Source of the DNA: Larkinella soli
GTDB lineage: Bacteria > Bacteroidota > Bacteroidia > Cytophagales > Spirosomataceae
NCBI RefSeq assembly: GCF_003703975.1
Contig: NZ_QTJY01000013.1
Span: 62,001 to 126,000 of the forward strand
DNA: 64,000 nucleotides
Reading direction: 5' to 3'
Positions within the stretch are counted from its first letter, which is position 1. Each line of letters begins with the position of its first letter. The notes beneath the pieces are model-generated. The model was not told the DNA's origin. It ran no database searches and worked only from the letters and a program-made list of their open reading frames with translations. Of the stretch, positions 10,119 through 43,985 are shown in pieces. The position numbers and the translations under genes were made by a program.

Positions 10119-10132
10119 ATATAATTTTGACT

Positions 10133-11302
10133 TCAGGAGTTAAAATCACTGACTAAGAGGTTTCTTCTTTTTTTATAGTAATGTTGGTTATAGTGCTTTC
10201 GACAGTAATACAGACTTTTTTTTGTTGGACTATCACACAACATGCAAACCCTAATGGGTTTATGTTGTAACTGAGGTGGCTTTCTGGGTCTTAAAATTCG
10301 GTTCGCGTATGCGTCAAGCCTCGCCTTTTTTCTTTGTAGATAGATTGTCGCGCCGTGATACATGTAATTGTATAACCTCAAAACCTGCTGCCTGCCACCA
10401 ACTAAAATTGTAATAATTTTTAAATAGCCGTCCGGGTGGGAAATTCGCCTTTGAAAATATACATCACATTTAGCCATTAAAAACTCCCTTAGTGGATCAA
10501 TAAAGTCCATATGCCCAATAAATCCAGCAGTACACCTGAATGTGGTTCTGCTCTTATCATTGCTGCGAAGAAGTACAGTTTCAGGATTAGTTATCCACCC
10601 ATCGCCATCAAAGAAGCCTCTAACAAAGTGATGTATAAGGGACGGGTCAATAAAGTCAGGAAAAGAAATATTATAAGTCTTTCGTGCGTTTATCCCCCAC
10701 CTTTCTAAAGCGCCGGACATACGCTGGTTCTTAATCTGGATTTTGCAGTACCTGTGTACATGACCCTTTTTCTTAGGGCGCTCTTCTCCGTAAACAAGCG
10801 GCTTGTCGGGATATACCAACCTGTTGAGCCTTTCCATCAATTCCGCATCTCCTTGTTGTAGCATCAGCACAATCAGGTTTTTCTCTGGCAAGTGATATCC
10901 ATCGGCGTAAAGCATCCCGAGAAAATACGCTTTTTCCTCTGTGTCTATGCGATCAAAAAAGTCCTCATTGATTGCATAGCGCCTGTTTCTAAGGGATCGG
11001 TCTCGAATTGGTACATTGCGCCTCTTTAATGTATTGAATATGGTCATAGGAGAAAGGCCGAATAGCTTAGCGACTTTCCCCAACGGCTTGCCTGAAAGGT
11101 ACTCTTTGGCAATTTCCTCCGCGATACCATCGGTTTTCGATATTGATCTGATGGAAACTTCATTTTTTTTCAGGACATAGGTCACCGCCTTCCGGCTTGC
11201 GCCCATTCGTTCAGCGACTTCCCTCTGATTGAGTCCAGACAGATACAAATCAATTATTTGGGCATCCATCCCTTTTAGTTTCCCTGATTGCTTATTGCTC
11301 AT
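10133..11302 (-). CDS. LAGLIDADG homing endonuclease with N-terminal helix-turn-helix repeats
   Basis: 389 residues. Two helix-turn-helix segments come first (about 12-50 LSGLNQREVAERMGASRKAV, and 64-100 LSGKPLGKVAKLFGLSPMTI). The two signature helices follow: YFLGMLYADGY at 126-136 and HHFVRGFFDGDGWI at 224-237, whose acidic residues would form the DNA-cleavage centre. The C-terminus has a CMLC...YYCRKHYNQH zinc-ribbon-like end. LAGLIDADG enzymes make double-strand breaks that spread their own gene. This one is not in an intron: its ATG overlaps the LytTR stop (ATGA), so it is translated as the last gene of the cassette. Its stop lies 15 bases from a broken tape measure gene, making a site in that gene its likely target. 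Confidence 0.85.
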   Translation of the reverse strand: MSNKQSGKLKGMDAQIIDLYLSGLNQREVAERMGASRKAVTYVLKKNEVSIRSISKTDGIAEEIAKEYLSGKPLGKVAKLFGLSPMTIFNTLKRRNVPIRDRSLRNRRYAINEDFFDRIDTEEKAYFLGMLYADGYHLPEKNLIVLMLQQGDAELMERLNRLVYPDKPLVYGEERPKKKGHVHRYCKIQIKNQRMSGALERWGINARKTYNISFPDFIDPSLIHHFVRGFFDGDGWITNPETVLLRSNDKSRTTFRCTAGFIGHMDFIDPLREFLMAKCDVYFQRRISHPDGYLKIITILVGGRQQVLRLYNYMYHGATIYLQRKKARLDAYANRILRPRKPPQLQHKPIRVCMLCDSPTKKSLYYCRKHYNQHYYKKRRNLLVSDFNS

Positions 11303-11661
11303 CTTTTGATTGACTTTTTGAATGCTACAGATAATCGACGCGATATAGGTATCCTTTCATTGTTACCAAGCTTCGCAAACACCTCTCCTTGACCATTTTG
11401 GCGTATCTCGGATATAAGCGACTCGTTCACTAGATGCGACCGATGTATCCTTATAAAGCCGGGCAGTTCCCTCGACAGTCGCGCGAGGTGAATGGCGATC
11501 AGGTGCTTCCGCCCATTCTTTAAAATAAGCCAGCTATAGCTTCCGGCCGCTTCAAAGCGCACGATCTGGCTGAGGTAGACCCAGTCCGTATTCGCCCCGA
11601 TGCGAAGCGTGAAGACGGCAATTTTAACGGGCTTAGCGGGCCGGTCACGGAGTGTAGTCAT
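11299..11661 (-). CDS. LytTR DNA-binding domain protein, cassette A
   Basis: 120 residues from ATG 11661 (MTTLRDRPAKPVKIAVFTLR), a start shared with the cassette B copy and overlapping the antirepressor gene by 17 bases in both. The rest is essentially one LytTR domain (IVRFEAAGSYSWLILKNGRK, then LPGFIRIHRSHLVNESLI), the DNA-binding module of LytR/AgrA regulators, here without a receiver domain. It differs from copy B mainly in the last 35 residues, after HRSHLVN. A role as transcriptional regulator of cassette or phage genes is inference. Confidence 0.8.
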   Translation of the reverse strand: MTTLRDRPAKPVKIAVFTLRIGANTDWVYLSQIVRFEAAGSYSWLILKNGRKHLIAIHLARLSRELPGFIRIHRSHLVNESLISEIRQNGQGEVFAKLGNNERIPISRRLSVAFKKSIKR

Positions 11662-12379
11662 GGTAGAAGAGTTCAGACATAATGATGCCGTACAGCTTTT
11701 CCAGATGCCCATGCCGCTCGGCGACCTCCAGCAGCGAGACGCCCGGTTGTCGCCGGTAGCCCCGGATGTTGACCCGGTAGAGCTGGTAGAGCCGGTCATA
11801 GAGCCAGTTCCAGGCTTCATGCTGGGGAATATCCCGCTCCCCGCAGTAGTCGTTGATGAGCTTGTTGATTTCCTCCCGGCTGGAGGGTTGGGGCGGGGCG
11901 ACCGGAGCCGGTTGAGAATACCGACCGCCCGTGATCAGGTGCGTGACCAGCGTTTCCAGCTTCGCCAGACGGCCACTTTGCTCGGTGAGTTGCTGGGCGT
12001 GGTTGACCAAGAGGGCTGCTTGCTGGAGCATCAGTTCCGCCGAACCGCCCGCCACCGCTTCGGGGGCGGGAACGGTCTGCTGCAACTGCTTTTCGCATTC
12101 GATGAAGTAGCGCCGGGCCTGTTTGCCCTTCTCGTTACCCTCCACCATCGCCAGTTCCTTGGCCGCTTCCAGCGTCAGGGCGTAGTCCAGTTCGGGCCGA
12201 CCTTTTTCTAAAATTTTAGAAATAACCACAAAGTCCTGCCCCTCAATCAAGTCATACTTCTCAATCCGGTTTTTCATCCAATCGGCAAACTTGGAGCGGA
12301 TTTGAAGGAAGCCGTGCAGGGTCCGGGCGGAAACGACCGCCCGGCCTTCTTTCTGTTCAATGGGAATCAAGGCGTTCAT
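11645..12379 (-). CDS. AntA/AntB-type phage antirepressor, cassette A
   Basis: 244 residues. The N-terminal 90 residues (VVSARTLHGFLQIRSKFADWMKNRIEKYDLIEGQDF, then YALTLEAAKELAMVEGNEKGKQARRYFIECE) match the AntA/AntB antirepressor fold. A coiled-coil-like linker and a C-terminal domain (INKLINDYCGERDIPQHEAWNWLYDRLYQ) follow. AntA proteins bind and neutralise phage repressors. The C-terminal ~150 residues are nearly identical to copy B, but the N-terminal DNA/ligand-facing part (residues 8-75) differs clearly, which suggests the two copies have different partners. The ATG overlaps the recombinase stop. Confidence 0.85.
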   Translation of the reverse strand: MNALIPIEQKEGRAVVSARTLHGFLQIRSKFADWMKNRIEKYDLIEGQDFVVISKILEKGRPELDYALTLEAAKELAMVEGNEKGKQARRYFIECEKQLQQTVPAPEAVAGGSAELMLQQAALLVNHAQQLTEQSGRLAKLETLVTHLITGGRYSQPAPVAPPQPSSREEINKLINDYCGERDIPQHEAWNWLYDRLYQLYRVNIRGYRRQPGVSLLEVAERHGHLEKLYGIIMSELFYHDYTP

Positions 12380-13821
12380 TGGAGAGATAGTGTTTGCGGG
12401 TGGTAAGGGTTGGTCTGGGCCATCTGGCTAAGCAGTAGCTGCTCTCCGGCATCGACGTACTTCGTCAGCATTTCGGACGAGGTATGCCCCGCGTTCGCTT
12501 GCAGGACCAGCGTAGGCGTTTTCAGCATCGCCCGGTGCGTCAGACCCGTATCGCGGCCCATGCCGAAGGTCAGCCGGATCGGCTTTCCTTTGCTGTCCCG
12601 AAGGCCCGCCAACAGGCTGATCTGCGTCAGCCGGGCATGGTACAGACTGTAACCGGCGTACTTTAGCCCCTTCACCCCGCCCCACTTCGCCAGAAGCCTC
12701 TCGGCGCGGGGCGTCACATCGACGTACATGTGAATGTCGGCCCGGCGCTGTTTGACGCGTGGGTGAATGAAGTACCTGCGGCCGCTGACCGGATCGGTCT
12801 TAAAGTGCATCGTGGGCAGTTCCATGAAATCGGCATGATGCAGGCAGAGTTCCGCCGCCACCAGCCAGCTTTCGAGGTAGTGTTGCAGGTCGTGGGGTAA
12901 GTCCAAGCGTTCAAGGAAGTCCATTTGCTCGAAGGTCAGCGGTTTGGGGCTGGCTTTCGACTTACCCCCGTTGCGAACCGCATGCAGGGGGTTGTATTTC
13001 AGATAGCCTTTCAGCACCGCATAATCCAGCAGTTGACGAAGGAAGGTCACCGTGTAGGCGATGGTGGAGTGTTTGACCGGCCGGCCGTAGCGGGACACCT
13101 GTCGCTGCAAAAATTCTTTCAGGTTGACTGCATCAGCGGCCGTTACCTCCAGCAGGGATCGGTCGACAAGGTTGGCCTCCCTGAGGAAGGTTTCGATCAG
13201 CTTCCAGCGGTAGCCATACGACTGGTAAGTGGCGGTGCTGATTTGCTCTCCGTCCCGCGTAAACCGGTTGTCGTTGATGAGTCTGCCCCGCACGGCGATA
13301 AACTCCCCGTAGAGGCTTTCCAGCGTGACGACCTTCCGGCGAATGCCTCTGAGCAGATCGGTGGCTTCCTTGCGAAAGGTATGCTGCACTTCCGCGTCCG
13401 GGTGAAAGGCTTCGGTCTGAGGGTCGAAACCCGTGCGCTGGTGGCGTTTCTGCATCCACACGGCCAATAGGTAGAGGTTCCGTGGGGTCGGCCCAATCTT
13501 CTCCTGCATCAAGAGCAGGTGAGCCAGTTCCAGCCTCCGGCGAAAGCCTTCGATCTTGGTGTTGAGGTCAATGGAGTCGGGCCGGTTGGGAAAGCGGTAG
13601 CGGTTCTCCCAGACGGGCCGGGTGGTTTCGATCTTTGTTGACCGGGGGGCGGAAGCTTCTTCGCCCAAGAAAATCAGCACCTGAACCCTTCCCGCCGGGC
13701 TGGTTTGCAGGGTACGGCGGTTCTTTCGAAACTCGAAGCGGCAGCGCAGGGGCTTCTGGGAGAGCGTGGTGTAGAGGGCGGGCCCGAAGAAGGGGCCCGC
13801 CTGAGCGTTATATGCATTCAT
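12376..13821 (-). CDS. Degenerate tyrosine recombinase-like protein, cassette A
   Basis: 481 residues. The region about 150-300 looks like an arm-type/SAM-like core-binding domain (ATYQSYGYRWKLIETFL, HSTIAYTVTFLRQLLDYAVLKGYLKYNPLHAV). The C-terminal half looks like a tyrosine recombinase catalytic domain ending in AGHTSSEMLTKYVDAGEQLL, with the GH (445-446) and candidate nucleophile Y455. The first catalytic arginine (usually TGLR) reads CLHHADF, and the H-x-x-R box is shortened to LTHRAML, so classical activity is doubtful. Almost identical to the cassette B copy over its whole length, including the unusual N-terminus rich in Gly/Pro. Could be a diverged but active recombinase or a DNA-binding derivative. 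Confidence 0.75.
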   Translation of the reverse strand: MNAYNAQAGPFFGPALYTTLSQKPLRCRFEFRKNRRTLQTSPAGRVQVLIFLGEEASAPRSTKIETTRPVWENRYRFPNRPDSIDLNTKIEGFRRRLELAHLLLMQEKIGPTPRNLYLLAVWMQKRHQRTGFDPQTEAFHPDAEVQHTFRKEATDLLRGIRRKVVTLESLYGEFIAVRGRLINDNRFTRDGEQISTATYQSYGYRWKLIETFLREANLVDRSLLEVTAADAVNLKEFLQRQVSRYGRPVKHSTIAYTVTFLRQLLDYAVLKGYLKYNPLHAVRNGGKSKASPKPLTFEQMDFLERLDLPHDLQHYLESWLVAAELCLHHADFMELPTMHFKTDPVSGRRYFIHPRVKQRRADIHMYVDVTPRAERLLAKWGGVKGLKYAGYSLYHARLTQISLLAGLRDSKGKPIRLTFGMGRDTGLTHRAMLKTPTLVLQANAGHTSSEMLTKYVDAGEQLLLSQMAQTNPYHPQTLSLQ

Positions 13822-13830
13822 GGGAAAGAA

Positions 13831-14139
13831 TCAGTTTTGGGAGAAGCGGTAGGGAAAGGTGTCGGCCGTAGCGGGCTTAGGCTGGGGCAGCTGGTTTTTC
13901 AGCAGGGCCAGCAAGCGGTCAATAAGCCGCTTTTGGGAATCAATCACCTGATCGCGGTGGTCGATATGGCGATTCAGCAGCTTTTCGCGCCGGGCCAACT
14001 CCTGAAAGTAGAGATCAGCGGGGTAGAAAACGCCGGTTTCGCCGGGGAAGATGCGGGGCCGCAGGTCCGGGGAGGTGGGGCCAGGTTGGGGCGCACTTGC
14101 GCCAAAGGAGGCATTGTCGTAGTTTTGCTCCGTACTCAT
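13831..14139 (-). CDS. Conserved cassette protein of 102 residues, cassette A
   Basis: Not recognised. It starts MSTEQNYDNASFGASAPQPG, has a Pro-rich segment, then a helical segment (ADLYFQELARREKLLNRHIDHRDQVIDSQKRLIDRL) of coiled-coil character. Nearly identical to 39916-40224 in cassette B. It is the first gene after the cassette promoter and is separated by only 9 bases from the recombinase gene, so the two are probably co-expressed. The small size and helical end suit a partner of the recombinase. Confidence 0.7.
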   Translation of the reverse strand: MSTEQNYDNASFGASAPQPGPTSPDLRPRIFPGETGVFYPADLYFQELARREKLLNRHIDHRDQVIDSQKRLIDRLLALLKNQLPQPKPATADTFPYRFSQN

Positions 14140-14297
14140 GACATGAACGTGTTTTGGGTGTCACAAGCCCCTTCGCTGACGTCGCCAAACTGATAGCGTT
14201 GGGGTTTTTTGTTAGGGGTTGGCTTCCTTCATACGGTCCAGCGGGCAACCGGGTTGGTGCTATTCCGCCTTTTCTGATTTGAGCCGTTTCCGTATTA
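14140..14297 (-). promoter_or_regulatory. Conserved cassette 5' leader, copy A
   Basis: About 150 bases between promoter and the 102-residue gene are strongly conserved with cassette B although no long ORF is present. It contains a tiny ORF (MKEANP in A, MKKAQTP in B) and a stem formed by CCCCAACGCT and AGCGAAGGGG with a two-base internal loop, followed by TGTGACACCCAAAACACG before the start codon. Conservation of both the mini-ORF and stem suggests leader-based control such as attenuation, which is inference. Confidence 0.5.
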
Positions 14298-14329
14298 CAA
14301 AGGTAAGCAATCCTTGCATATATGCAAGG
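14298..14329 (-). promoter_or_regulatory. Cassette A promoter overlapped by a palindromic operator
   Basis: On the minus strand TTG at 14325-14327 and TACCTTTG at 14298-14305 are 19 bases apart, an exact match to the Bacteroidota consensus. A perfect 18-bp palindrome (CCTTGCATATATGCAAGG, 14312-14329) covers the TTG box and most of the spacer. It lies between the XRE gene and the operon, so the XRE protein is the obvious candidate to bind it. Confidence 0.75.
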
Positions 14330-14345
14330 GAAATAAGCAAAAAAA

Positions 14346-14570
14346 TTACTGCGTTTTGATATTTATCTCTAACTCAGCATTCAATGCTTTGGCAATTGTT
14401 TTCAAGGTGGCAACTGTAAAATTATTCTTTCCAACCTCGTACCCAGCAACGGTGGACTCAGAGACACCGAGTTTTTGAGCAAAGGTAGCTTGAGTATACC
14501 CCTGCTTCTTCCTTAAATCCTGAATCAGCTTACCCAATTCTTTTGATGTGATTGGCATTACAGAGATCAT
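14346..14570 (-). CDS. XRE-family repressor, cassette A
   Basis: 74 residues, a single helix-turn-helix of the XRE/Cro type (LGKLIQDLRKKQGYTQATFAQKLGVSESTVAGYEVGKNNFTVATLKTIAKAL). It starts MISVMPITSK or, less likely, at the second Met. Small HTH repressors like this sit before the operon they control. It lies directly upstream of the palindrome at 14312-14329 in the same direction. The copy at 39481 is clearly diverged in the recognition helix (SESTVAGYEV against NKSTIALYEK), matching the different palindrome there. Confidence 0.85.
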   Translation of the reverse strand: MISVMPITSKELGKLIQDLRKKQGYTQATFAQKLGVSESTVAGYEVGKNNFTVATLKTIAKALNAELEINIKTQ

Positions 14571-14886: not shown

Positions 14887-17223
14887 ATGGACAAAAGTGA
14901 AAAAGAAACAATAGATGAATTGTTAAAAAAATTAAAATCAGAAGACCTGGATTATAGAGAAATAATTCGTCTATCGAATCAATTATCCAAATATGACACA
15001 AAATACCAAAGATTTGTTATAGATGCAAAGACACTAATCCATTTAGGGAGAGATAGCATAAAGGACCACACAACAGCATTACTTGAACTAGTAAAGAATA
15101 GTTACGACGCAGACGCAAAAAATGTAATTGTTGAAATATATTCAAAAGGTGAAGAGAAGTATATAAGAGTAGCAGACAATGGTTTTGGAATGAAAAAAGA
15201 GGAGCTGTTAAATAATTGGTTAAGAATCGGATTTTCTAATAAAAGACAGTCAAAGTTAAGTAATTTAGGCAGGAGGAGGACAGGCGAAAAAGGCATTGGA
15301 AGAATTTCAACTGATAGATTAGGTTCAAAATTAGTATTAAAAACAAAAAGTAGTGATGATAAAATAGTTGGCTTAAAAGTAGATTGGGATGATTTTGATA
15401 CAGAAGGGAAAGACGTATTTGATATAAATGTAGAAATATTCGAGCCTATTGAAATTGATATCCCTAAAAATGAAATTAACAATTCATTAACTGGAACAGA
15501 AATAATAATAACAAACTTAAGACAAAATTGGACTGAAAAAAATGTAGAAAATTTATACAATGAACTTTCCTCATTAACCCCGCCATTTGAAGATATAAAA
15601 GATTTTTCAATAGAATTAAAAAATGATATATTATCATCATTATCAAAAAAAGTAAGTACTGAATTTCTTAAGGCTGCAGAAATAGAATTAACACTTATAT
15701 ATGATGGAAAAGGAAAAGGCCTACTTTACACTATCAAAGATAAGCATCAAAAAGAAGAAATAGTTAAGGAAATATCTTGGCAAAATTTAATACAAAAAAC
15801 ATTTTCAAGTAACGAGCAAAACCAAATAAGTGAAGATCTGAGCTGTGGACCGGTAACAATAAAACTATTATTCTTTTTAAGGTCTGCTACAGCCGTAGCA
15901 GATTTAGATTTTAAATTGGCAGACCTAAGAGAATTTTTAAATGTAAATGCTGGCCTTAAAATATATAGAGATAATGTTGCCGTAAAGCCTTATGGATTTC
16001 CAAGTTCACAAAATGGATTTGATTGGCTTAGCTTAGCAGAAAGAAAAGCAAAAGATCCTGGTGGTATTGGGCGAGAAGACGGAGGTTTGGTTTTACCATA
16101 CCAAATTGTTGGCGCAATATATATAACAAGGGATAACAACATTGCACTTACTGATAGTGCAGCTAGAGAAGGACTAGTAGAGTCAGAAGCCTTCAATGAT
16201 TTAAAAAATTTGGTAATGGGTTCTATAGTGTTATTAGAAACTCACAGAGCCGATTTATATCAAATGCTAGATAAGGAGAAAGAGACAAAAACACTAACTT
16301 CATCAAAAGAAAAAGAGTACATTAGAGATAAATTTTTAGTTGTAAAAGCAGGGTTAAATACGCTAAAAGAGGCAATTCAAGAGCAAGGTGACACAAAAAT
16401 TAAAGATGAAAGCTTACAAATAGTAGAAAGTGCATCAGAGACGGTTTCTAAAGTTGAAATAATAGTTGAGAAAACTATAACTGAATTACTAGCATGGAAC
16501 AGGGTTTTAAGTGGTTTGGCAACTTTAGGAATATCATCTGCAGTATTTGGTCATGAAACGGAAAATTCAATTTCACAAGTTTTAAACTCTACCCATACAG
16601 CAAAGTTAATTTTAAATCAAATAACGCCTAATATTGAAGATGCAGTACAAGAAATAGATAAAGCCTTAGCGCATTCAACAAAAGTATCTGCTTGGGGTGC
16701 ATATGCACTAACAAGAGTGCAAAAAGAAAAGCGAAGTAAAAAAGCATCAAATATTACGAGAATAATTGAAGCAGTAGTAAAAGAATTAAAGCCTGCATTT
16801 ATGGCGGCTTCAATAGAAATAAAAGTAATAGGCGAAATGATTGTTAGTAAAACCTATGTAATGGATATTGAATCAATACTAATAAATTTACTAACAAATT
16901 CGTACACAGCAGCGACACAAAAACCAGGTGATAGAAAAGTTAAAGTTGAAGTAGCAAGAGAAGACAAGAATGGACAAATCGGGTATTATTTTGCGGTATC
17001 AGACTCTGGCCCAGGAGTAGCAAAAGAGTTTAGAAAGAGGATTTTCGATCCACTTTTTTCAACAAAGAATAGTAGTACAAATGCAAGTAAAAGTGTAGGT
17101 ACTGGTTTAGGGCTTACAATTGTTTCCTCCATAGTAGCTGAGTTAAAAGGAACAATTGAGGTTGATATAGATCCAATACTTAAAGGCGCAAGATTTAAAG
17201 TTTGGTTACCAAAGGAGAAATAG
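14887..17223 (+). CDS. Double GHKL ATPase / histidine kinase, first gene of a putative defence operon
   Basis: 778 residues with two GHKL ATP-binding modules. N-terminal module of the HSP90/MutL/MORC kind: ELVKNSYDADA (67-77), DNGFGM (97-102), GEKGIGR (133-139). C-terminal module of the histidine-kinase kind: candidate H-box SAVFGHETENSISQVLNS with H556, N-box LINLLTNSYTAA (about 660), DSGPGV (706), GTGLGLTI (738). No signal peptide or membrane span, so it is cytoplasmic. The stop is 2 bases before the receiver gene, which suggests H556 phosphorylates that protein. MutL/MORC-like ATPases have been linked to restriction-type systems by comparative genomics. The combination of both GHKL types in one chain, with a receiver, HNH and methylase downstream, is what makes it notable. 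Very A-rich codon use marks it as acquired. Confidence 0.85.
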   Translation: MDKSEKETIDELLKKLKSEDLDYREIIRLSNQLSKYDTKYQRFVIDAKTLIHLGRDSIKDHTTALLELVKNSYDADAKNVIVEIYSKGEEKYIRVADNGFGMKKEELLNNWLRIGFSNKRQSKLSNLGRRRTGEKGIGRISTDRLGSKLVLKTKSSDDKIVGLKVDWDDFDTEGKDVFDINVEIFEPIEIDIPKNEINNSLTGTEIIITNLRQNWTEKNVENLYNELSSLTPPFEDIKDFSIELKNDILSSLSKKVSTEFLKAAEIELTLIYDGKGKGLLYTIKDKHQKEEIVKEISWQNLIQKTFSSNEQNQISEDLSCGPVTIKLLFFLRSATAVADLDFKLADLREFLNVNAGLKIYRDNVAVKPYGFPSSQNGFDWLSLAERKAKDPGGIGREDGGLVLPYQIVGAIYITRDNNIALTDSAAREGLVESEAFNDLKNLVMGSIVLLETHRADLYQMLDKEKETKTLTSSKEKEYIRDKFLVVKAGLNTLKEAIQEQGDTKIKDESLQIVESASETVSKVEIIVEKTITELLAWNRVLSGLATLGISSAVFGHETENSISQVLNSTHTAKLILNQITPNIEDAVQEIDKALAHSTKVSAWGAYALTRVQKEKRSKKASNITRIIEAVVKELKPAFMAASIEIKVIGEMIVSKTYVMDIESILINLLTNSYTAATQKPGDRKVKVEVAREDKNGQIGYYFAVSDSGPGVAKEFRKRIFDPLFSTKNSSTNASKSVGTGLGLTIVSSIVAELKGTIEVDIDPILKGARFKVWLPKEK

Positions 17224-17225
17224 CC

Positions 17226-23027: not shown

Positions 23028-23159
23028 GAGTAGCTTTTCAACGTGTTAATCTGAAAATTTATAGTTAATTGTATAACAAATCTAGAATTTCAGTATGTCT
23101 TTCAAATTTGGATTAATAAGTTAAAACCATAAAAATTAAGAGAGATTTATCTTAACTTA

Positions 23160-30091: not shown

Positions 30092-30092
30092 A

Positions 30093-33702: not shown

Positions 33703-33951
33703 TCCCAAATCGCCGAACAGGAGGCTTCTTACCAGAAATTAGGTCGCGACCGGATGCACTATCATACGGCAATGGCTCAGGCAGGCGGCAAGTCTGGCCC
33801 CAGTGCCAGAGAAATTGCAGCTGCTTTAGCTGATGAGCTGGAGAAGCGACCCCGCTTACAGTTGAATAATGATGAGAACGGCTTTACCCGGACGATCATT
33901 GAGAAGACGACAAAGCGGGTTGAGCTGAATAAGCGAAGGTATTTGAGCTAG
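33703..33951 (+). pseudogene. Inverted 3' fragment of a tape measure gene
   Basis: Encodes SQIAEQEASYQKLGRDRMHYHTAMAQAGGKSGPSAREIAAALADELEKRPRLQLNNDENGFTRTIIE..., matching the tape measure C-terminus (SQIAQQEASYQKLGRDRMVYRTAMAQAGGRSG...) almost without gaps, then KRVELNKRRYLS and a stop. It is on the plus strand, opposite to all virion genes. The break falls exactly before SQIA, in frame with the deaminase-like fragment. Confidence 0.85.
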
Positions 33952-36638: not shown

Positions 36639-36640
36639 AT

Positions 36641-38323
36641 TTAAAATTTAAAAAATTTCTCATGCTCAGATAGTAACAAACAAGTATTTTCATTTATAAA
36701 CGAAATGTCAAACGATGTGAGTTTATCTCGCAAAATTGAAACAACATATTGACCAGGAAGGCTATTAGCTAATTCAAAGGCAGTAGAAAGTTGATTAATA
36801 TGTACATCCTCTGTGCTATCGTGAAGTACAAACCTTGGCAATTTTGATTTCATTTCATCTAAAAAAGAAATATATGCAAAATCAAAAGCAGTAATTTGGC
36901 CTTTCTTTTTGCCTGTTCCAACATTTCCTGAAAGAGTATCCAACTTAAATTCAATCTTTTCCCCCTTCTTATCGTAAGAAAGAAAATATTGTTCATCGTA
37001 TAACTTTTTTGAATAGTCAGCAAAATAAGTATTGAAAATTGCTAACTTATTATCAAAATCAAACAAATATTCATTCAATTTCATTGTAAACAACTCCACT
37101 GCCTTTCGACTTTTTTCACAATTCGTTTCTTCGCTTTCAATGAGAGATATGAGTTTACTTTCTTGTCCTCTTCTTTCATAAAGTAAATTGAGTTCATTCT
37201 GCAGTTTATTTAGTTCGGACAAAGAACCTGTATCTGTAATTACCTTTAAAAGCTTACTCTCCTCAGTCAAGTAAAAGTTAAGATCCTTATAAGATTCCTC
37301 AATTTGAGTAATAGTCTCAGTTAAGTTTCTTTTAATAAAATCTATTTTTTTATCAATCATTTTATTGTGAAAACCAAGAACTTCTTCGAAAGTTTTTTGA
37401 AGGCTTGGGACTAAAACTTTTGCCTCTTTATATAACTCTTTTATAGCTAAAGGATCAATTTTTGACCGATTACTCTCAAGTTCTTCTAAGCTTTCTTGAT
37501 TTAACTGATGCTTAATTTTTAGGTTCGCAATCCGATTTGTAATTATTCCAATTTGGGTTTTAATTTCATTTAAACGATTAACCTCTCTTTCATAAGATGC
37601 ATTAAGCTTAAAACCTTTTAACTGCTCATTTGTAACGTCAATATTATGGTCTATTATTTTTAGTATTTGTTTACTTGATTGAATTGACCTATTTCCTGAC
37701 TTCAAAGCTTTCAACCTTTTTTCGGTCTTTTGCAATTCTTTTATTGCATACAACCTATCTACTAATAAATTATGATCAGTGAAACCAAACAAAAAAAGGA
37801 ATAATACCTCATATTCATCCTTTGTCGTTGTAGAATAAAGGAATTTTAACGCATTAGTCATTGAAGTCATATCTTTTCGAATAAACTTATGCATTAATTG
37901 CCTTATTGACGGTTTTGAATTTTTAATGCTGAAAATCTCAAGCTCAAGCTTTTCTCTATATTGTTTTAAAGATGGAAAGGATTCATTATTAATTTTTAAT
38001 AATGAACTATCATTAAATCCTCTTTCTAATATGTAAGACTTATTATTACTTGTTAATGATAAAGAAACCACTATTCCATTCTTAAATAGGTATTCATAAA
38101 CGGGCTGATTTATAGTCCTAAACTCTGGATCAGTATAGATATCTTTGCCATCCGAACCAAAACAAAAATCGATTACTCGAAGTAATGTAGTTTTACCTAC
38201 ATTATTTCCAGATTCAGTATTCTTCTTCGTTGTCTCATCTATTACCAAGTTTAAACCAAGCTTAAAATCTACCTTTCGGATTTCGATTTTATCTAACTTT
38301 ACTATTAATTGATTTAATAGCAT
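36641..38323 (-). CDS. ABC-three-component system ATPase (DUF2326-like)
   Basis: 560 residues. Walker A at the start (SGNNVGKTTLLRVIDFCFG, residues 38-56), a very long coiled coil (about 180-420), and a C-terminal ATPase half with SYDKKGEKIEFKLDTLSGNVGTGKKKGQITAFDFAYISFLDEMKSKLPRFVLHDSTEDVH, whose FVLHDSTED is the Walker B-like strand. This is the SMC/RecN-like ATPase of ABC-three-component conflict systems. Its start overlaps the small middle-component gene by 10 bases. Confidence 0.8.
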   Translation of the reverse strand: MLLNQLIVKLDKIEIRKVDFKLGLNLVIDETTKKNTESGNNVGKTTLLRVIDFCFGSDGKDIYTDPEFRTINQPVYEYLFKNGIVVSLSLTSNNKSYILERGFNDSSLLKINNESFPSLKQYREKLELEIFSIKNSKPSIRQLMHKFIRKDMTSMTNALKFLYSTTTKDEYEVLFLFLFGFTDHNLLVDRLYAIKELQKTEKRLKALKSGNRSIQSSKQILKIIDHNIDVTNEQLKGFKLNASYEREVNRLNEIKTQIGIITNRIANLKIKHQLNQESLEELESNRSKIDPLAIKELYKEAKVLVPSLQKTFEEVLGFHNKMIDKKIDFIKRNLTETITQIEESYKDLNFYLTEESKLLKVITDTGSLSELNKLQNELNLLYERRGQESKLISLIESEETNCEKSRKAVELFTMKLNEYLFDFDNKLAIFNTYFADYSKKLYDEQYFLSYDKKGEKIEFKLDTLSGNVGTGKKKGQITAFDFAYISFLDEMKSKLPRFVLHDSTEDVHINQLSTAFELANSLPGQYVVSILRDKLTSFDISFINENTCLLLSEHEKFFKF

Positions 38324-38553
38324 CTTTCAATTCCAGATTTAGAGTTAATACTTATAAGACCTAAAATAAATAGCCAATCTAAGGCATATAAAAAGTAACT
38401 AAACGAAATCTTTTCTGGAAAATTCTTCGCCAGCTTCTCATACAAAATTTGAATGTCAATAATTCCCATACTTTCAGAATTTAGGGTCTCTAAAATTTTT
38501 GACCCAATTACATACAAACTTTTTTCTGGTTTAATATCAATTGGTAATATCAT
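38314..38553 (-). CDS. ABC-three-component system middle component
   Basis: 79 residues, MILPIDIKPEKSLYVIGSKILETL...LYALDWLFILGLISINSKSGIERCY. This is the shape of the small winged-helix-like middle components found between the ATPase and the third protein (I would compare it with middle component 6 first). Its start overlaps the stop of the upstream gene (TGATG), and its end overlaps the ATPase gene, so the three are translated together. Confidence 0.7.
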   Translation of the reverse strand: MILPIDIKPEKSLYVIGSKILETLNSESMGIIDIQILYEKLAKNFPEKISFSYFLYALDWLFILGLISINSKSGIERCY

Positions 38554-39131
38554 CAGCCTTTGTTTGGGTTCTCTAATATCTTACAGTCGATAAAAGCTTT
38601 ACAAACAATAATTACTAAACAAGCTTGAAGGTCTTCCTCCATGATTTGTTCAAAGTTAGATGATCTTTTATAATCAATACTTAATGAATCTATTATGTTT
38701 GTTATAATTATATCTGCATATTTACAAATTAAACTGTGTTTATCCTGATTCGGATTTTGTGCAACTAAGTCACTTACTTGCCTAATATACTTATTATTTA
38801 TGCTTTTTAAAAATCTGCTTTTAGAATTAGGCTTTTCATTATCTAGCGTTTCATAAATTTTATCTACTATTGCACCATAGTTTCCATAGTTTTCAATTAC
38901 TTCTTTGTAAACCTTTATTTTATTGAATTCGATTTTTTCATTTATTTCATATAATTGTAGTGTGGTCAGACCTTGCGGTGTATCATCAAGCACTTTTTCA
39001 AGTCGGCTGATTACAATAGATAAATAAGATGGAAGTCTTTCTTGTAAATATTTGTAATCGTTAATAATTAGGGTACCGGCCGATTGGTATACTGTCCCTT
39101 TTGCTTTAAAATTAGTTAATGCTCCCTTCAT
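38553..39131 (-). CDS. ABC-three-component system third protein
   Basis: 192 residues. Starts MKGALTNFKAKGTVYQSAGTLIINDYKYLQERLP, then an all-helical region with many Asn/Lys and a conserved-looking end (FEQIMEEDLQACLVIIVCKAFIDCKILENPN) like the C-terminal protein of ABC-three-component systems, which is the likely sensor/effector carrier. The FKAKG...Q..G...IN pattern at its start is also present at the end of the upstream membrane protein. Confidence 0.7.
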   Translation of the reverse strand: MKGALTNFKAKGTVYQSAGTLIINDYKYLQERLPSYLSIVISRLEKVLDDTPQGLTTLQLYEINEKIEFNKIKVYKEVIENYGNYGAIVDKIYETLDNEKPNSKSRFLKSINNKYIRQVSDLVAQNPNQDKHSLICKYADIIITNIIDSLSIDYKRSSNFEQIMEEDLQACLVIIVCKAFIDCKILENPNKG

Positions 39132-39336
39132 TTTTCCCTTTATTTATAGTCATATCTCCAGAAGTTTGGAAATTTTCTTTACCTTTTGCTTTAAATTGGA
39201 TGTCACCTTTGTGACTTTTATTTGTTTTTATAGTTTTAGATATTTTGTTCGCTTTCCTTAATGCCATAATGCTTACAATCATTGAAATGATCGAAGAGGC
39301 TCCTACAATTATGTTAAATATATCTATTGCTTTCAT
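39112..39336 (-). CDS. Small membrane protein of the ABC-three-component operon
   Basis: 74 residues with one membrane span at about 5-25 (DIFNIIVGASSIISMIVSIMA) and a polar tail HKGDIQFKAKGKENFQTSGDMTINKG. It overlaps the next gene by 20 bases and is the first gene of the operon, so it is probably the membrane-linked partner. The tail's FKAKG..FQ.SG...IN is the same pattern as at the start of the third protein, which may let the two stack. Confidence 0.65.
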   Translation of the reverse strand: MKAIDIFNIIVGASSIISMIVSIMALRKANKISKTIKTNKSHKGDIQFKAKGKENFQTSGDMTINKGKNEGSIN

Positions 39337-39480: not shown

Positions 39481-39705
39481 ATGATCGCCGTAATGCCGGA
39501 AACCCCTGAAGAGATAGGCCAGCTTATCAAAGAACTGAGAAAAAAGCGAGGTATGACTCAAACCGAATTGGGTGAAAAATTCGGCGCGAACAAGTCAACA
39601 ATTGCGCTTTATGAAAAAGGGCGTAACGGCTTCTCGGTTGCGACATTAAAGCGATTTGCGGAGGCTTTGAATGCGGAGCTCAAAATCGATATCATATTGA
39701 AGTAG
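39481..39705 (+). CDS. XRE-family repressor, cassette B
   Basis: 74 residues, IGQLIKELRKKRGMTQTELGEKFGANKSTIALYEKGRNGFSVATLKRFAEAL, one XRE helix-turn-helix. It corresponds to 14346-14570 in cassette A, with the first residues (MIAVMP) and the end conserved but the recognition helix changed. The palindrome just downstream (39722-39745) is also different from that of cassette A, as expected if repressor and operator diverged together. Confidence 0.85.
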   Translation: MIAVMPETPEEIGQLIKELRKKRGMTQTELGEKFGANKSTIALYEKGRNGFSVATLKRFAEALNAELKIDIILK

Positions 39706-39721: not shown

Positions 39722-39756
39722 AAAGTTTGCAATATTGCAAACTTTATCTATCTTTG
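39722..39756 (+). promoter_or_regulatory. Cassette B promoter overlapped by a palindromic operator
   Basis: TTTG (39726-39729) and TATCTTTG (39749-39756) are 19 bases apart, an ideal Bacteroidota promoter. A 24-bp perfect palindrome with half-site AAAGTTTGCAAT spans 39722-39745, covering the upstream box and spacer. Only the central TTGCA/TGCAA core is shared with the cassette A palindrome. Confidence 0.8.
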
Positions 39757-39915
39757 TAATAAGGAAACGGCAGAAATCAGAAAAGGCGATACAGTACCCA
39801 TAAGGTTGCCCGCTGGACCGTATGAAGAAAGCCCAAACCCCATAAAAAACCCCAACGCTACGAATCTTGGCGGATGAAGCGAAGGGGCATGTGACACCCA
39901 AAACACGTTCATGTT
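39757..39915 (+). promoter_or_regulatory. Conserved cassette 5' leader, copy B
   Basis: Same elements as in cassette A: GGAAACGGC...AAATCAGAAAAGGCG, the mini-ORF MKKAQTP, the CCCCAACGCT/AGCGAAGGGG stem and TGTGACACCCAAAACACG before the ATG. Bases within the stem are kept between copies while the loop and the mini-ORF codons vary. Confidence 0.5.
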
Positions 39916-40224
39916 ATGAGCACGGAGCAAAACTACGACAATGCCTCCTTTGGCGCAAGTGCGCCCCAACCTGGCCCCGCATCTTCCGACCTGCGGCCCC
40001 GCATCTTCCCCGGCGAAACCGGCGTTTTCTATCCCGCCGACCTTTACTTTCAGGAACTGGCCCGGCGTGAAAAGCTGCTGGCGCGTCACATCGATCACCG
40101 CGATCAGGTGATCGATTCTCAGAAACGACTCATCGACCGCTTGCTGACGCTGCTAAAGAACCAGCTGCCTCAGCCTAAACCCGCTACGGCCGACACCTTT
40201 CCCTACCGCTTCTCCCAAAACTGA
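39916..40224 (+). CDS. Conserved cassette protein of 102 residues, cassette B
   Basis: Differs from the cassette A copy at only a few positions (for example GPASSDLRP for GPTSPDLRP and KLLARHIDH for KLLNRHIDH). It starts the operon, 9 bases before the recombinase gene. Strong conservation at the protein level in both copies suggests a function needed by the cassette. Confidence 0.7.
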   Translation: MSTEQNYDNASFGASAPQPGPASSDLRPRIFPGETGVFYPADLYFQELARREKLLARHIDHRDQVIDSQKRLIDRLLTLLKNQLPQPKPATADTFPYRFSQN

Positions 40225-40233
40225 TTCTTTCCC

Positions 40234-41679
40234 ATGAATGCCTCTAGCTTTCAGGCTGGCCCCTTCTCCGGGCCCGCCCTCTACACCACGCTCTCGCACA
40301 AGCCCCTGCGCTGCCGCTTCGAGTTCAGAAAGAACCGGCGGACCCTGCAAGCCAGCCCGGCCGGAATAATTCAGGTGCTGATCTTTCTGGGTGAGGAAGC
40401 CTCCGCCCCGCTTTCCACGAAGATCGAAACCACCCGGCCCGTCTGGGAGAACCGCTACCGCTTTCCCAACCGGCCCGACTCCATTGACCTCAACACCAAG
40501 ATCGAAGGCTTTCGCCGGAGGCTGGAACTGGCTCACCTGCTGCTGATACAGGAGAAGATTGGGCCGACCCCGCGAAACCTCTACCAACTGGCCGTGTGGA
40601 TGCAGAAACGCCACCAGCGCACGGGCTTCGACCCCCAGACGGAAGCCTTTCACCCGGACGCGGAAGTCCAGCACACCTTTCGCAAGGAAGCCACCGAAAT
40701 GCTGAAAGGAATTCGTCGGAAGGTCGTCACGCTGGAAAGCCTCTACGGAGAGTTTATCGCCGTGCGGGGCAGACTCATCAACGACAACCGGTTCACTCGG
40801 GACGGAGAGCAGATCAGCACCGCTACCTACCAGTCGTATGGCTATCGGTGGAAGCTGATCGAAACCTTTCTCAGGGAAAATAACCTCGCCGAACGGTCTC
40901 TGTTGGAGGTAACGGCTGCCGATGCGGTGAACCTGAAAGAGTTTTTGCAGGGACAGTCCTCGCGCTACGGCCGGCCGGTCAAACACTCCACCATCGCCTA
41001 TACGGTCACGTTTCTTCGGCAACTGCTGGATTATGCCGTGCTGAAAGGCTACCTGAAATACAACCCCCTGCACGCCGTGCGCAACGGGGGCAAGTCAAAA
41101 GCCAGCCCTAAGCCTCTGACCTTCGAGCAAATGGACTTCCTCGAACGGATGGACTTACCCCACGACCTGCAACACTACCTCGAAAGCTGGCTGGTGGCGG
41201 CTGAACTCTGCCTGCACCACGCCGATTTCATGGAACTGCCCACGATGCACTTTAAGACCGATGCGGTCAGCGGGAGACGCTACTTCATTCACCCGCGGGT
41301 TAAACAGCGCCGGGCCGACATTCACATGTACGTCGATGTGACGCCCCGCGCCGAACGCCTGCTGGCGAAGTGGGGTGGGGTGAAGGGGCTAAAGTACGCC
41401 GGTTACAGTCTGTACCATGCCCGGCTGATGCAGATCAGCCTGTTGGCAGGTCTGCGGGACAACAAGGGTAAGCCGATCAAACTAACCTTCGGCATGGGCC
41501 GGGATACGGGCCTGACGCACCGGGCGATGCTGAAAACGCCCACGCTGGTCCTGCAGGCGAACGCGGGGCATACCTCCTCCGAAATGCTGACGAAGTACGT
41601 CGATGCCGGAGAGCAGCTACTCCTCAGCCAGATGGCCCAAACCAATCCCTATCCTCTTCAAACGCTATCCCTCCGATGA
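40234..41679 (+). CDS. Degenerate tyrosine recombinase-like protein, cassette B
   Basis: 481 residues, same length as the cassette A copy and nearly identical, with scattered substitutions (AGIIQVLIF for AGRVQVLIF, ENNLAERSL for EANLVDRSL). It keeps the same odd catalytic site: CLHHADF where an arginine is expected, LTHRAML, and AGHTSSEMLTKYVDA. Both copies kept an intact frame despite the missing arginine, so the protein is under selection. The stop overlaps the antirepressor start. Confidence 0.75.
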   Translation: MNASSFQAGPFSGPALYTTLSHKPLRCRFEFRKNRRTLQASPAGIIQVLIFLGEEASAPLSTKIETTRPVWENRYRFPNRPDSIDLNTKIEGFRRRLELAHLLLIQEKIGPTPRNLYQLAVWMQKRHQRTGFDPQTEAFHPDAEVQHTFRKEATEMLKGIRRKVVTLESLYGEFIAVRGRLINDNRFTRDGEQISTATYQSYGYRWKLIETFLRENNLAERSLLEVTAADAVNLKEFLQGQSSRYGRPVKHSTIAYTVTFLRQLLDYAVLKGYLKYNPLHAVRNGGKSKASPKPLTFEQMDFLERMDLPHDLQHYLESWLVAAELCLHHADFMELPTMHFKTDAVSGRRYFIHPRVKQRRADIHMYVDVTPRAERLLAKWGGVKGLKYAGYSLYHARLMQISLLAGLRDNKGKPIKLTFGMGRDTGLTHRAMLKTPTLVLQANAGHTSSEMLTKYVDAGEQLLLSQMAQTNPYPLQTLSLR

Positions 41680-42413
41680 ACGCGCTGATTCCCATTCAAC
41701 AGCAATCCGGGCGCACGGTGGTGTCTGCTCGTGACCTGCACACCTTTCTGGAGGATAAACAAAAGTTTGCCGACTGGATTAAAAAACGGATTCAAAAGTA
41801 CGAGTTGGTGGAGGGCGAAGATTATCTCACGTTTTCATTAAATTCTGAAAACGGAGGGCGCTCGATTGAATACGCTCTGACGGTGGAAGCGGCCAAGGAA
41901 CTGGCGATGGTTCAGGGCAACGAGAAGGGCAAACAGGCCCGGCGCTACTTCATCGAATGCGAAAAGCGGTTACAGCAGACCGTTCCCGCCCCCGAAGCAG
42001 TGGCGGGCGGTTCGGCGGAACTGATGCTGCAACAAGCGGCCCTGTTGGTCAACCACGCCCAGCAACTCACCGAGCAAAGCGGCCGGTTGGCGAAGCTGGA
42101 AACGCTGGTCACGCACCTGATTTCGGGCGGTCGCTACAGCCAGGCCGCCCCGGTCGCCCCGCCCCCACCTTCGACCAGCCGGGAGGAAATCAACAAGCTC
42201 ATCAACGACTACTGCGGAGAGCGGGACATTCCCCAGCACGAAGCCTGGAACTGGCTGTATGACCGGCTCTATCAGCTTTACCGGGTCAACATCCGGGGGT
42301 ATCGCCGTCAGCCGGGCGTCTCGCTGCTGGAAGTGGCCGAGCGGCACGGTCATCTGGAAAAGCTGTACGGCATCATTATGTCCGAACTCTTCTACCATGA
42401 CTACACTCCGTGA
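41676..42413 (+). CDS. AntA/AntB-type phage antirepressor, cassette B
   Basis: 245 residues with the same domain plan as 11645-12379. The N-terminal part reads VVSARDLHTFLEDKQKFADWIKKRIQKYELVEGEDYLTFSLNSENGGR and differs from copy A at many positions, while from about residue 80 to the end the two are nearly identical (IQ).. This sharp contrast suggests recombination or selection for a new partner in the N-terminal domain. Expected to relieve repression by an XRE-type repressor. Confidence 0.85.
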   Translation: MNALIPIQQQSGRTVVSARDLHTFLEDKQKFADWIKKRIQKYELVEGEDYLTFSLNSENGGRSIEYALTVEAAKELAMVQGNEKGKQARRYFIECEKRLQQTVPAPEAVAGGSAELMLQQAALLVNHAQQLTEQSGRLAKLETLVTHLISGGRYSQAAPVAPPPPSTSREEINKLINDYCGERDIPQHEAWNWLYDRLYQLYRVNIRGYRRQPGVSLLEVAERHGHLEKLYGIIMSELFYHDYTP

Positions 42414-42744
42414 CCGGCCTGCCCAGCCCATTAAAGTCGCCGTCTTCACGCTTCGCATTGGGGCGAATACGGATTGGGTGTACCTCAGCCAGATCGTGCG
42501 CTTTGAAGCGGCCGGAAGCTATAGCTGGCTTATTTTGAAAGACGGACGAAAATACCTGATTGCAATTCATCTGGCCCGTTTGGCCCGCCAGCTGCCCGGT
42601 TTTGTGCGGGTTCACCGTTCGCATCTGGTCAACCGGGAGTGGATTCTGGCCGACATAGATATAACCTTGCCTGAAGCGGTGATTCAATTAAAAACCGGGG
42701 AGCGTATCCCTGTTTCCCGACGAAAAGGCAAAGCATTACGATAA
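42397..42744 (+). CDS. LytTR DNA-binding domain protein, cassette B
   Basis: 115 residues from ATG 42397, overlapping the antirepressor gene by 17 bases as in cassette A. LytTR signature IVRFEAAGSYSWLILKDGRKYLIAIHLARLARQLPGFVRVHRSHLVNREWI. The last 30 residues diverge from copy A. It has no receiver, so its activity is not controlled by phosphorylation in the usual way. Confidence 0.8.
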   Translation: MTTLRDRPAQPIKVAVFTLRIGANTDWVYLSQIVRFEAAGSYSWLILKDGRKYLIAIHLARLARQLPGFVRVHRSHLVNREWILADIDITLPEAVIQLKTGERIPVSRRKGKALR

Positions 42745-42777
42745 CCGCTCACTGATGCCCTCTTTAATAACCGAAGC

Positions 42778-43863
42778 ATGAAAGTCAGGTATACCTTTCG
42801 CTGCTATCCTACGGACACACAGGCTCAGGCGTTAAGCCGGGTATTCGGACACACCCGCTTTGTGTGGAACTGGGCTTTGCGACTGCGTACGGATGCTTGG
42901 GGCCATGGTGAGCGCATTAATTACAACCAGACTAGTGCGGCCCTGACTGCTCTCAAAAAGACCGCTGAATACCAATGGCTCAATGAGGTCAGTTGCGTTC
43001 CGCTTCAACAAAGTTTGAGAAACCTGCAAAAGGCGTTTTTGAACTTCTTTGCCGGTCGGACAAGGCGCCCCCGATTCAAGAAAAAGCGGCACAAACAAGC
43101 AGCTGAATACACAGCATCGGCTTTCAAGTATCAGGATGGCGAACTGAGTCTGGCAAAGATCGGCAAGTTAAAAGTTCGCTGGTCGCGCCCGTTTCAGTCC
43201 CAGCCTACTACCGTTACCGTCATACAGACGCCAACGGGTCGGTATTATGTCACCCTAGTACTTGATGAAATGCCTCAGCCTTACAATAAAACAGGAGAGT
43301 TGATTGGCATTGATTTAGGTATCAATCGACTGGCAACGCTCAGTAATGGCGAACACATTCCCAACTTGAAATTTACAAAAAAGCACGAACGTCAGTTGGC
43401 GAAAGCCCAAAAGTCCTTGAGCCGGAAAACCAAAGGTTCAGGACGTTGGATTCGTCAACGAATGAAGGTGGCCCGTGTGCATGAAAGATTGACCAATGCC
43501 CGTATTGACCACATCCATAAGATTACCACCGACCTGGTGCGTAGGTTTGATGTGATTGCAGTGGAGGATTTGAATGTTCGGGGCATGCTAAGAAATAAAA
43601 AACTGGCAAAGCAGATTAGCGATGCAAGTTTTGGCCGATTCGTTTCCATGCTTCAATACAAGTGCGTTTGGCGTGGTAAAGAACTGGTGAAGATTGACCG
43701 TTACTTCCCTAGCAGTAAACGCTGCTCATGCTGCGGCTACATTGCTCAGACGCTACCCCTTTCGGTGCGTAGCTGGCAGTGTCCCGAGTGTCAGTCAATA
43801 CATGACAGAGACGAAAATGCGTCTCGTAATATTCTGAATTTTGCGGTGGGACACCCCGTTTGA
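42778..43863 (+). CDS. tnpB: TnpB RNA-guided endonuclease (IS200/IS605 OrfB type)
   Basis: 361 residues. N-terminal helix-turn-helix region (YRCYPTD-type start, TRFVWNWAL), then a RuvC-like nuclease with GIDLGI (D179), VEDLNV (E263) and HDRDENASRN (D345), and a zinc finger CSCC...CPEC (316-319, 335-338). All catalytic residues are present. No tnpA transposase is nearby. TnpB cuts DNA guided by an RNA from the element's right end, restoring the element at sites it has left. It starts 33 bases after the LytTR gene in the position held by the LAGLIDADG gene in cassette A. Confidence 0.92.
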   Translation: MKVRYTFRCYPTDTQAQALSRVFGHTRFVWNWALRLRTDAWGHGERINYNQTSAALTALKKTAEYQWLNEVSCVPLQQSLRNLQKAFLNFFAGRTRRPRFKKKRHKQAAEYTASAFKYQDGELSLAKIGKLKVRWSRPFQSQPTTVTVIQTPTGRYYVTLVLDEMPQPYNKTGELIGIDLGINRLATLSNGEHIPNLKFTKKHERQLAKAQKSLSRKTKGSGRWIRQRMKVARVHERLTNARIDHIHKITTDLVRRFDVIAVEDLNVRGMLRNKKLAKQISDASFGRFVSMLQYKCVWRGKELVKIDRYFPSSKRCSCCGYIAQTLPLSVRSWQCPECQSIHDRDENASRNILNFAVGHPV

Positions 43864-43966
43864 GCGCGTGGATTCGATGTAAGACCTTCCGGGCTTTGCC
43901 TGTAGGGCGGTTGAAGAGGAAGCGTGAACTGTCTCAGGCTATATATTAGTTTGAGAATCCCTAACA
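43800..43966 (+). ncRNA. Putative TnpB guide RNA (omega RNA) and element right end
   Basis: The tnpB 3' end and following ~100 bases show the layout of an omega RNA: GACCTTCCGGGC...GCCTGTAGGGCGG, GAAGAGGAAGCGTGAACTG, then a hairpin CTCA...TGAG and GAATCCC. The guide would begin right after the right end, near 43966. No experimental boundary can be given. Confidence 0.5.
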
Positions 43967-43985
43967 TAGTATGGGATAGAAGATG

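Follow-up and report, generated by a model that had tools for sequence, protein, structure and literature searches.

Antirepressor modules with exchangeable terminal nucleases in the tail operon of a Larkinella soli prophage and in related Spirosomataceae phages: a probable moron-type system

Results and discussion

Two inverted units in a prophage tail module

The stretch of Larkinella soli DNA analyzed here (64,000 nucleotides of contig NZ_QTJY01000013.1, positions 62,001 to 126,000; called the window, to which all coordinates refer) contains a prophage, in which we identified an integrase (56277-57542), terminase, major head, portal and tail genes. The tail genes run leftwards on the minus strand as far as a complete tape-measure gene (23287-26811, minus strand; phrog_33615, 2.5e-121; tape-measure phrog_5062, 2.2e-29). 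Two inverted cassettes, here units A and B, sit within this tail module and interrupt its genes. By analogy with known phages, each unit is probably a moron-type module of a temperate-phage tail operon, in which an antirepressor operon would be held by two locks and the nuclease at its end would likely act in homing.

We propose that the XRE protein of a unit would bind a palindrome beside the operon promoter and repress the operon. The second lock would be an antisense RNA of about 80-90 nucleotides, running from the first codons of a small open reading frame (ORF) to a leader hairpin and covering the start of the message. If both locks failed, the operon would make the antirepressor and, where present, the terminal nuclease. 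The antirepressor (an AntA or pRha-type N-terminus with a shared C-terminal domain) would upset lysogeny, while the nuclease (LAGLIDADG, TnpB, GIY-YIG or HNH) would most likely cut the DNA of related phages that are without the unit; repair would then carry the unit, together with its cargo and the adjoining tail DNA (tape-measure sequence among it), over to the cut phage. The actions given here to the antirepressor, the antisense RNA and the nuclease are deduced from the protein families and the anatomy of the units.

Unit A, on the minus strand, consists of an XRE repressor (14346-14570; HTH_3, 1.8e-15), a small leader ORF for a 102-amino-acid protein (13831-14139), a tyrosine recombinase with an altered active site (12376-13821; Phage_int_SAM_5, 4e-05; phrog_1, 3.3e-14), an AntA antirepressor with a unit-specific C-terminal domain (11645-12379; PF08346, 1.4e-23), a LytTR DNA-binding protein (11299-11661; PF04397, 1.2e-15) and a LAGLIDADG homing-type endonuclease (10133-11302; phrog_4645, 1.2e-47). 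Between the XRE gene and the small ORF lie a candidate XRE operator, the perfect 18-bp palindrome CCTTGCATATATGCAAGG (14312-14329); the -7 element TACCTTTG of a forward promoter of the Bacteroidota TAnnTTTG type (14298-14305, minus strand); and a leader hairpin, CCCCAACGCT..AGCGAAGGGG (14168-14204), which on the plus strand is a terminator-like hairpin followed by a T-run. A predicted antisense promoter, TTG-N20-TAGTTTTG (14097-14127, plus strand), falls inside the first codons of the 102-amino-acid gene, and the predicted antisense RNA would occupy approximately 14133-14213 on the plus strand. The LAGLIDADG protein has both motifs intact by eye (YFLGMLYADGY and FVRGFFDGDGW, with the acidic residues present), and its match to Pfam LAGLIDADG_3 (0.0012) is below the cut-off. 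The Pfam run covered copy A and the AntA and TnpB proteins of copy B; the 102-amino-acid protein had no match in Pfam or PHROG.

Unit B has the same plan on the plus strand: an XRE repressor (39481-39705), the 102-amino-acid protein (39916-40224), a tyrosine recombinase (40234-41679), an AntA antirepressor (41676-42413; PF08346, 2.3e-24), a LytTR protein (42397-42744) and, in the last place, a TnpB (42778-43863; OrfB_IS605, 6e-29; phrog_506, 6.3e-134). Its candidate operator is a perfect 20-bp palindrome, AGTTTGCAATATTGCAAACT (39724-39743), followed by the forward -7 element TATCTTTG (39749-39756, plus strand), the leader hairpin or predicted antisense terminator (39850-39887), the predicted antisense promoter TTG-N20-TAGTTTTG (39928-39958, minus strand) and the predicted antisense RNA (about 39843-39922, minus strand). 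The palindromes of the two units differ in sequence as well as length, and each lies beside a TAnnTTTG promoter. The most likely start of LytTR is 11661 in unit A and 42397 in unit B, in both cases with an overlap of the AntA stop.

A preliminary description of this DNA had reported two inverted five-gene cassettes followed by different nucleases, and this is borne out: all the genes are where it had placed them, the families agree, and in a BLAST search of the window against itself 11404-14414 pairs with 42657-39637 in inverted orientation at 86.7% identity over 3026 columns, with an E value of 0, so that the pairing is not a matter of chance. The identity is uneven, with 56% between the XRE proteins and 68% between the first 100 residues of the antirepressors, against 95% for the recombinases, 96% for the 102-amino-acid proteins and 96-97% for these proteins together with the last 80 antirepressor residues. 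A search of the L. soli genome with the DNA of the 102-amino-acid and recombinase genes found exactly two copies, those of the window. A third, reduced copy consisting of XRE, hairpin and small ORF is present on another contig of the same genome (L206, C10:137368-144368), where the antirepressor, recombinase and nuclease profiles gave no match.

Units at the same tail site in related phages

The tail gene at 44438-45565 is matched in 10 other genomes of the same family (222 searched), of which four are close (47-52% identity), three of these being Spirosoma spitsbergense, S. sordidisoli and Spirosoma sp. 48-14. All four close relatives carry units in the tail module, two each in the genomes we label G201 and G211 and one each in G202 and G188, which with the two of the window makes eight. 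The order in these eight is XRE, a small protein starting M[SN]T(E/D)Q (the N-terminal motif of the 102-amino-acid protein), antirepressor and nuclease. The terminal nuclease is a LAGLIDADG protein in unit A, in G188 and in the second unit of G211; a TnpB in unit B and in the first unit of G201; a GIY-YIG protein in the first unit of G211 and in G202; and HNH-like, by eye, in the second unit of G201. No recombinase was found in the six units of the related prophages.

The same tail genes occur without a unit in a viral contig (IMGVR_UViG_3300036389_000008). A more distant contig (IMGVR_UViG_3300045938_000231), with tail proteins 22-38% identical, has two inverted units with their nuclease ends outward. 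One of them stands against the homolog of 29394-29933, where unit B of the window adjoins the neighboring tail gene, 43986-44438; the second, as in the window, comes after the tape-measure gene. The module is thus not fixed at one per phage, since two units are present in the window prophage, in G201, in G211 and in this contig.

Within the window, G211 and G201 the two XRE proteins are 45-56% identical, the first 100 residues of the antirepressors 22-68%, their last 80 residues 56-97% and the small proteins 82-97%; in each of G201 and G211 the antirepressor of one unit starts with an AntA-type domain and that of the other with one which we take to be of the pRha type. Divergence of the XRE proteins and the antirepressor N-termini fits two switches that would be kept from cross-reacting. 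The pair in the distant contig does not show this, with antirepressors 74% identical in the N-terminal and 70% in the C-terminal part.

Paired units might also be read as an inversion switch, in which inverted, near-identical modules flip a tape-measure segment and so change the tail type. The inverted copies of the window do contain near-identical stretches, related prophages have tape-measure genes and units in both orientations, and the distant contig likewise has an inverted pair. We nevertheless consider such a switch very improbable, because the unit pairs of G201 and G211 are in direct orientation, no flipped form was seen, and a flip would leave tail genes antisense to their operon. 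As separate observations, both tape-measure genes found in G201 lie antisense to the tail genes, and in G202 single tail genes (homologs of 27577-28374 and 3292-5949) are inverted.

The constant core and a predicted antisense RNA

The constant core of the module is the XRE gene, the operator and promoter, a leader hairpin that covaries and a small ORF with a conserved start, predicted to be a promoter on the reverse strand; the recombinase is not part of it. After the core come an antirepressor, a tyrosine recombinase or both, and then sometimes a nuclease. Between phages the small proteins are alike over only their first 15 residues or so (mean identity 31%, maximum 46%), while the two of one phage are 96, 82 and 97% identical in the three closely related phages with two units (96% in the window) and 63% in the distant contig. 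In 13 of 15 units the strand opposite these first codons carries TTG-N20-TAnnTTTG at one and the same position, and TAnnTTTG taken alone is present in all 15. The pattern agrees with the Bacteroidota promoter consensus, which includes TAnnTTTG, as given in PMC7366714, the upstream element here being often TTG and not TTTG. The start of the small ORF therefore looks like a reverse-strand Bacteroidota promoter, from which an antisense RNA of 80-90 nucleotides over the start of the operon is predicted.

With an assumed start point, the length of the predicted RNA is 82-94 nucleotides in 53 of the 55 units assembled from the family (see below), and 48 of the 55 have an antisense terminator score of at least 9, compared with 4 of the 55 on the sense strand and 12% of shuffles. 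Automatic alignments were of little use for covariance (in alignment A3 the covariation term was -0.99, and A5 was misaligned at the hairpin), and for this reason the hairpin arms were taken by script. Among 57 units with 37 distinct arm pairs, 85% of stem cells pair against 62% in column shuffles, and double changes number 122 against a mean of 38 and a maximum of 51 in 500 shuffles; the arms were picked by maximizing pairing, which favors this result, and the shuffles ignore relatedness. Nothing in the whole window reached the Rfam gathering threshold, and the best Rfam match to the leader of unit B was far below its own. A second conserved leader stretch upstream of the hairpin, GGTTGCC-CGCT..AC-GTA (39800-39830 in the window, for example), is present in several units, not in all.

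Distribution and gene content in the family

A DNA pattern of the small-ORF start was scanned in 222 Spirosomataceae genomes with a reversed control. It gave 82 matches in 33 of the genomes and in 6 of 36 genera, against 4 for the control; in 311 genomes from other families of the order sample there were 5 matches against 2, from which the module looks confined to the Spirosomataceae. In a scan of 100 viral stretches 97 matches were scored and the best 25 listed; of 14 loci examined further, 12 have an XRE gene upstream, and we take most of the remaining matches to be chance.

We read 55 units, comprising 53 of the 82 pattern matches (29 were left out) and the two units of G201, which do not have the -33 element. 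Gene content was scored with home-made hidden Markov models, and an XRE gene was counted when at most 600 bases upstream. By this measure XRE is present in 38 of the 55 units, the antirepressor C-terminal domain in 28, LytTR in 6 and a tyrosine recombinase in 19, six of which also have the antirepressor domain; 14 units have neither antirepressor domain nor recombinase. A nuclease of one of four families was found in 16 units; the antirepressor domain is present in 14 of these (out of 28 such units), and the other 2 are among the 27 units that do not have it; the family labels are loose, as some proteins match two models (L209, L228, G202). In 55 control windows of 4.5 kb, drawn from 14 loci of which one (L055) itself has a unit without those genes, there were no nucleases and no antirepressor domains, three recombinase ORFs and one LytTR ORF. 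Unit contexts include a portal and neck gene cluster (L213) and a tape-measure neighbor (L218).

Terminal nucleases

The suggestion that the nucleases are interchangeable finds support on this wider scale, where the recurring phage module can end in LAGLIDADG, TnpB, GIY-YIG or HNH; that they act in homing is plausible. Relatives of the GIY-YIG protein of G211 are present at 8 loci (9 places, two in one gene), and 7 of the 8, including the seed, are in units, where the same operon has XRE and the antirepressor domain upstream of the nuclease, the exception being L256. At most of these loci the small ORF departs from the strict pattern and was recognized by eye.

The TnpB of unit B has OrfB RuvC and TNB (Cas12f1-like_TNB) domains, with PF01385 and PF07282 above cut-off, and by eye the three acidic RuvC motifs at what we take to be their positions. 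A candidate right end with guide-RNA scaffold (43864-43989, plus strand) ends in GATGTCAA (43982-43989) over the stop codon of the adjoining tail gene, and the TnpB of L208 (79% identical) has a similar end. The fold of this 3' region (z -1.58, with 13 of 200 shuffles as good) is not clearly better than that of shuffles. If GATGTCAA is the usual right end of a TnpB element, its guide would run on into the tail gene and the target would be a phage without the unit. The L. soli genome has no second relative of this TnpB, and its two Y1_Tnp genes are on other contigs, with none on this one.

These data bear on an alternative in which the units would be common morons for lysogeny or regulation and the nucleases independent selfish genes at a permissive downstream site, with no functional link between them. 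Homing enzymes are common in phage structural regions, and several of our results, weighing against the homing module proposed here, agree with the alternative or loosen the case in other ways. No nuclease was matched in 39 of the 55 units, and no XRE in 17. Relatives of the window TnpB (10 places at E<=1e-70, a list that leaves out the more distant TnpB proteins of L207, L222 and G201) lie mostly outside units, three being in units, one having an XRE only (L247) and six neither; the TnpB guide would correspond to tail-gene sequence (the 3' end) at a point where the related phages differ. In L217 one GIY-YIG frame precedes and enters an AntA-like start instead of coming after it. The borders of the units are not uniform, and terminal repeats common to them were not found. 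As for the predicted RNA, both G201 units are without the -33 TTG and retain TAnnTTTG only, the promoter pattern is present in 53 of the 55 units, 40 of which it served to find, so that it is not independent evidence there, and the extra pair types in the stem did not stand out (27, equal to the shuffle maximum of 27, with a shuffle mean of 21); the choice of arms described above belongs here as well. On the other side, such nucleases are missing from all 55 control windows, of the 14 units with both an antirepressor and a nuclease 13 have all their nucleases after the antirepressor, seven of the eight GIY-YIG loci are in units, and one slot has been reached by four nuclease families. We therefore regard independent insertion into ordinary morons as rather unlikely, and a regulated module with a homing nuclease as the probable reading. 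The frame in L217 (1850-2668) starts AntA-like, continues as GIY-YIG and is followed by an intact pRha-type antirepressor; it looks as if a nuclease had landed in an antirepressor gene.

The recombinase as an accessory gene

A further alternative is a mobile element in which the tyrosine recombinase moves the cassette and the two copies flank a 34-kb composite. The conservation of the recombinase between the window copies, its match in 19 of the 55 units and the related recombinases held by same-family genomes are in its favor. The preliminary description had likewise suggested one mobile element and had proposed to look for further copies by the pair of 102-residue protein and recombinase. 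That one element runs from 10119 to 43985, that this pair is its hallmark and that the recombinase moves it are not supported. Tail genes including the tape-measure gene lie between the cassettes; 36 of the 55 units have no recombinase match, which rules the gene out as a hallmark, and the small protein is common over about 15 codons only; neither borders nor attachment-site-like (att-like) repeats were seen at the unit ends. In both window copies the R-H-R-H-Y site, at what we assume to be the catalytic positions, appears to have His in place of Arg I and to have lost the His of HxxR, with R, H and Y kept. An element moved by this recombinase is thus improbable. Further copies of the module do occur in the Spirosomataceae, with a recombinase that is not constant and borders that vary.

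Recombinase and LytTR genes are extras that certain lineages have, and the recombinase of the window may act as a DNA-binding protein. One relative (G186a) is altered at the same active-site places and others vary. No recombinase relatives were confirmed in IMG/VR or in the scans of genome contigs, and none of the 102-amino-acid protein in IMG/VR. Among the family loci, L022, L024, L026 and L028 have one to three tyrosine recombinases, with an antirepressor match in L028 only, and in L022, L027 and L028 a gene that is presumably bioA-like is found no more than about 9 kb from the recombinase.

Borders, tape-measure fragments and cargo

Fragmented copies of tape-measure genes stand at the borders of the units. 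Next to unit A is the C-terminal remnant of another tape-measure gene (9639-10118, minus strand); the cut, at an R/K-P-[IL]-P motif conserved among aligned tape-measure proteins, is some 15 bases away from the stop of the LAGLIDADG gene, and position 10119 is thus the cut point of this second C-terminus (10118-9639). On the far, cargo side of unit B is another C-terminal fragment (33703-33951, plus strand; 82% identical to 23300-23541). An inversion of 9900-33702 was considered as the source of both pieces and ruled out, because the first is a full C-terminus through its stop. At the nuclease end of unit B, position 43985 adjoins the stop codon of the tail gene 43986-44438 (minus strand, phrog_6195), which the candidate TnpB end overlaps.

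Defence-like, AT-rich genes adjoin each cassette on its XRE side, with a GC content of 0.23-0.37 against 0.53-0.64 in the cassette cores. The cargo of unit A (14887-20109, plus strand) includes HATPase/restriction-like, weakly receiver-like, HNH (PtuB-like) and type II-like methyltransferase proteins; that of unit B (35193-39336) includes a PDC-M68B AAA-type protein, a protein with a weak Csx1-nuclease match, and small partners with no family match. Restriction-modification-like sets near the units number two, at 14887-20109 and 30415-32935. A short hairpin, CCGCTACC-GGACTGCG-loop-CGCAGTCC, occurs at five sites (5933-5994, 7093-7147, 23148-23225, 26795-26857 and 30075-30152); it is present at the start codons of the tape-measure gene and of the next tail gene, with stray copies where gene starts remain as fragments and similar sites in related prophages. 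Those at 5933-5994, 23148-23225, 26795-26857 and 30075-30152 were considered as unit ends and rejected, as they mark gene starts instead.

Likeness to known systems

In phage P22, sar starts inside ant, ends before it and controls ant, and the antisense RNA predicted here resembles this layout; in phage P1 immI (c4 antisense RNA, icd, ant) a small ORF linked to the antirepressor is likewise held by an antisense RNA. P1 differs in that c4 is processed from the same strand, in having no nuclease and in its host phylum. The P22 repressors Mnt and Arc are ribbon-helix-helix proteins, whereas the repressor here is an XRE protein (HTH_3) and the small ORF has no family match.

The preliminary description knew of no named element with this gene set, and a functional analog does exist: PMC2629481 describes P22 immI as an "ant moron" of the late operon, with repressors, sar, ant and sieA. 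The likeness extends to a highly variable insertion in the late (tail) operon, to the combination of repressors, antisense RNA (here predicted) and antirepressor, and to the adjoining superinfection-exclusion gene, which we liken to the setting here (PMC2629481). An antirepressor in a moron between late structural genes is what we find, with AntA in the tail module and a related phage without the unit. The units differ from immI in their XRE, AntA/pRha and LytTR families, in an antisense promoter within a separate small ORF, in the homing-type nuclease or recombinase of some, in their defence-like cargo and in the presence of two units in several phages. By this analogy the module would work like the P22 "ant moron", and it is not homologous to it.

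The nucleases share with the free-standing homing endonucleases of phages their families (LAGLIDADG, GIY-YIG, HNH), adjacent conserved phage genes and intact LAGLIDADG motifs; what sets them apart is their place at the end of an antirepressor operon that has cargo. The TnpB resembles those of IS200/IS605 elements in its OrfB and zinc-ribbon domains and, putatively, in having a right end with a guide region where the element stops, although no Y1 transposase is near it. Our literature searches turned up no description of this module.

Conclusions

A broader proposal, which we advance tentatively and regard as possible but somewhat doubtful, is that the doubly locked operon is a family-wide platform of Spirosomataceae phages, a chassis for interchangeable homing nucleases of four unrelated families including the RNA-guided TnpB, which would spread defence cargo and tape-measure alleles between phages when lysogeny breaks and of which one phage could have two units, differing in repressor and antirepressor specificity, without cross-talk. 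The predicted antisense RNA would be a candidate small-RNA family; at curated thresholds Rfam matched nothing in the window. If our reading is correct, antirepressor switches, protein- and RNA-guided homing nucleases and defence cargo would be joined in one regulated module with a conserved antisense RNA. This would help to explain the gathering of defence genes in the tail operon, and the units would offer natural replicate experiments on the swapping of nucleases in one slot.

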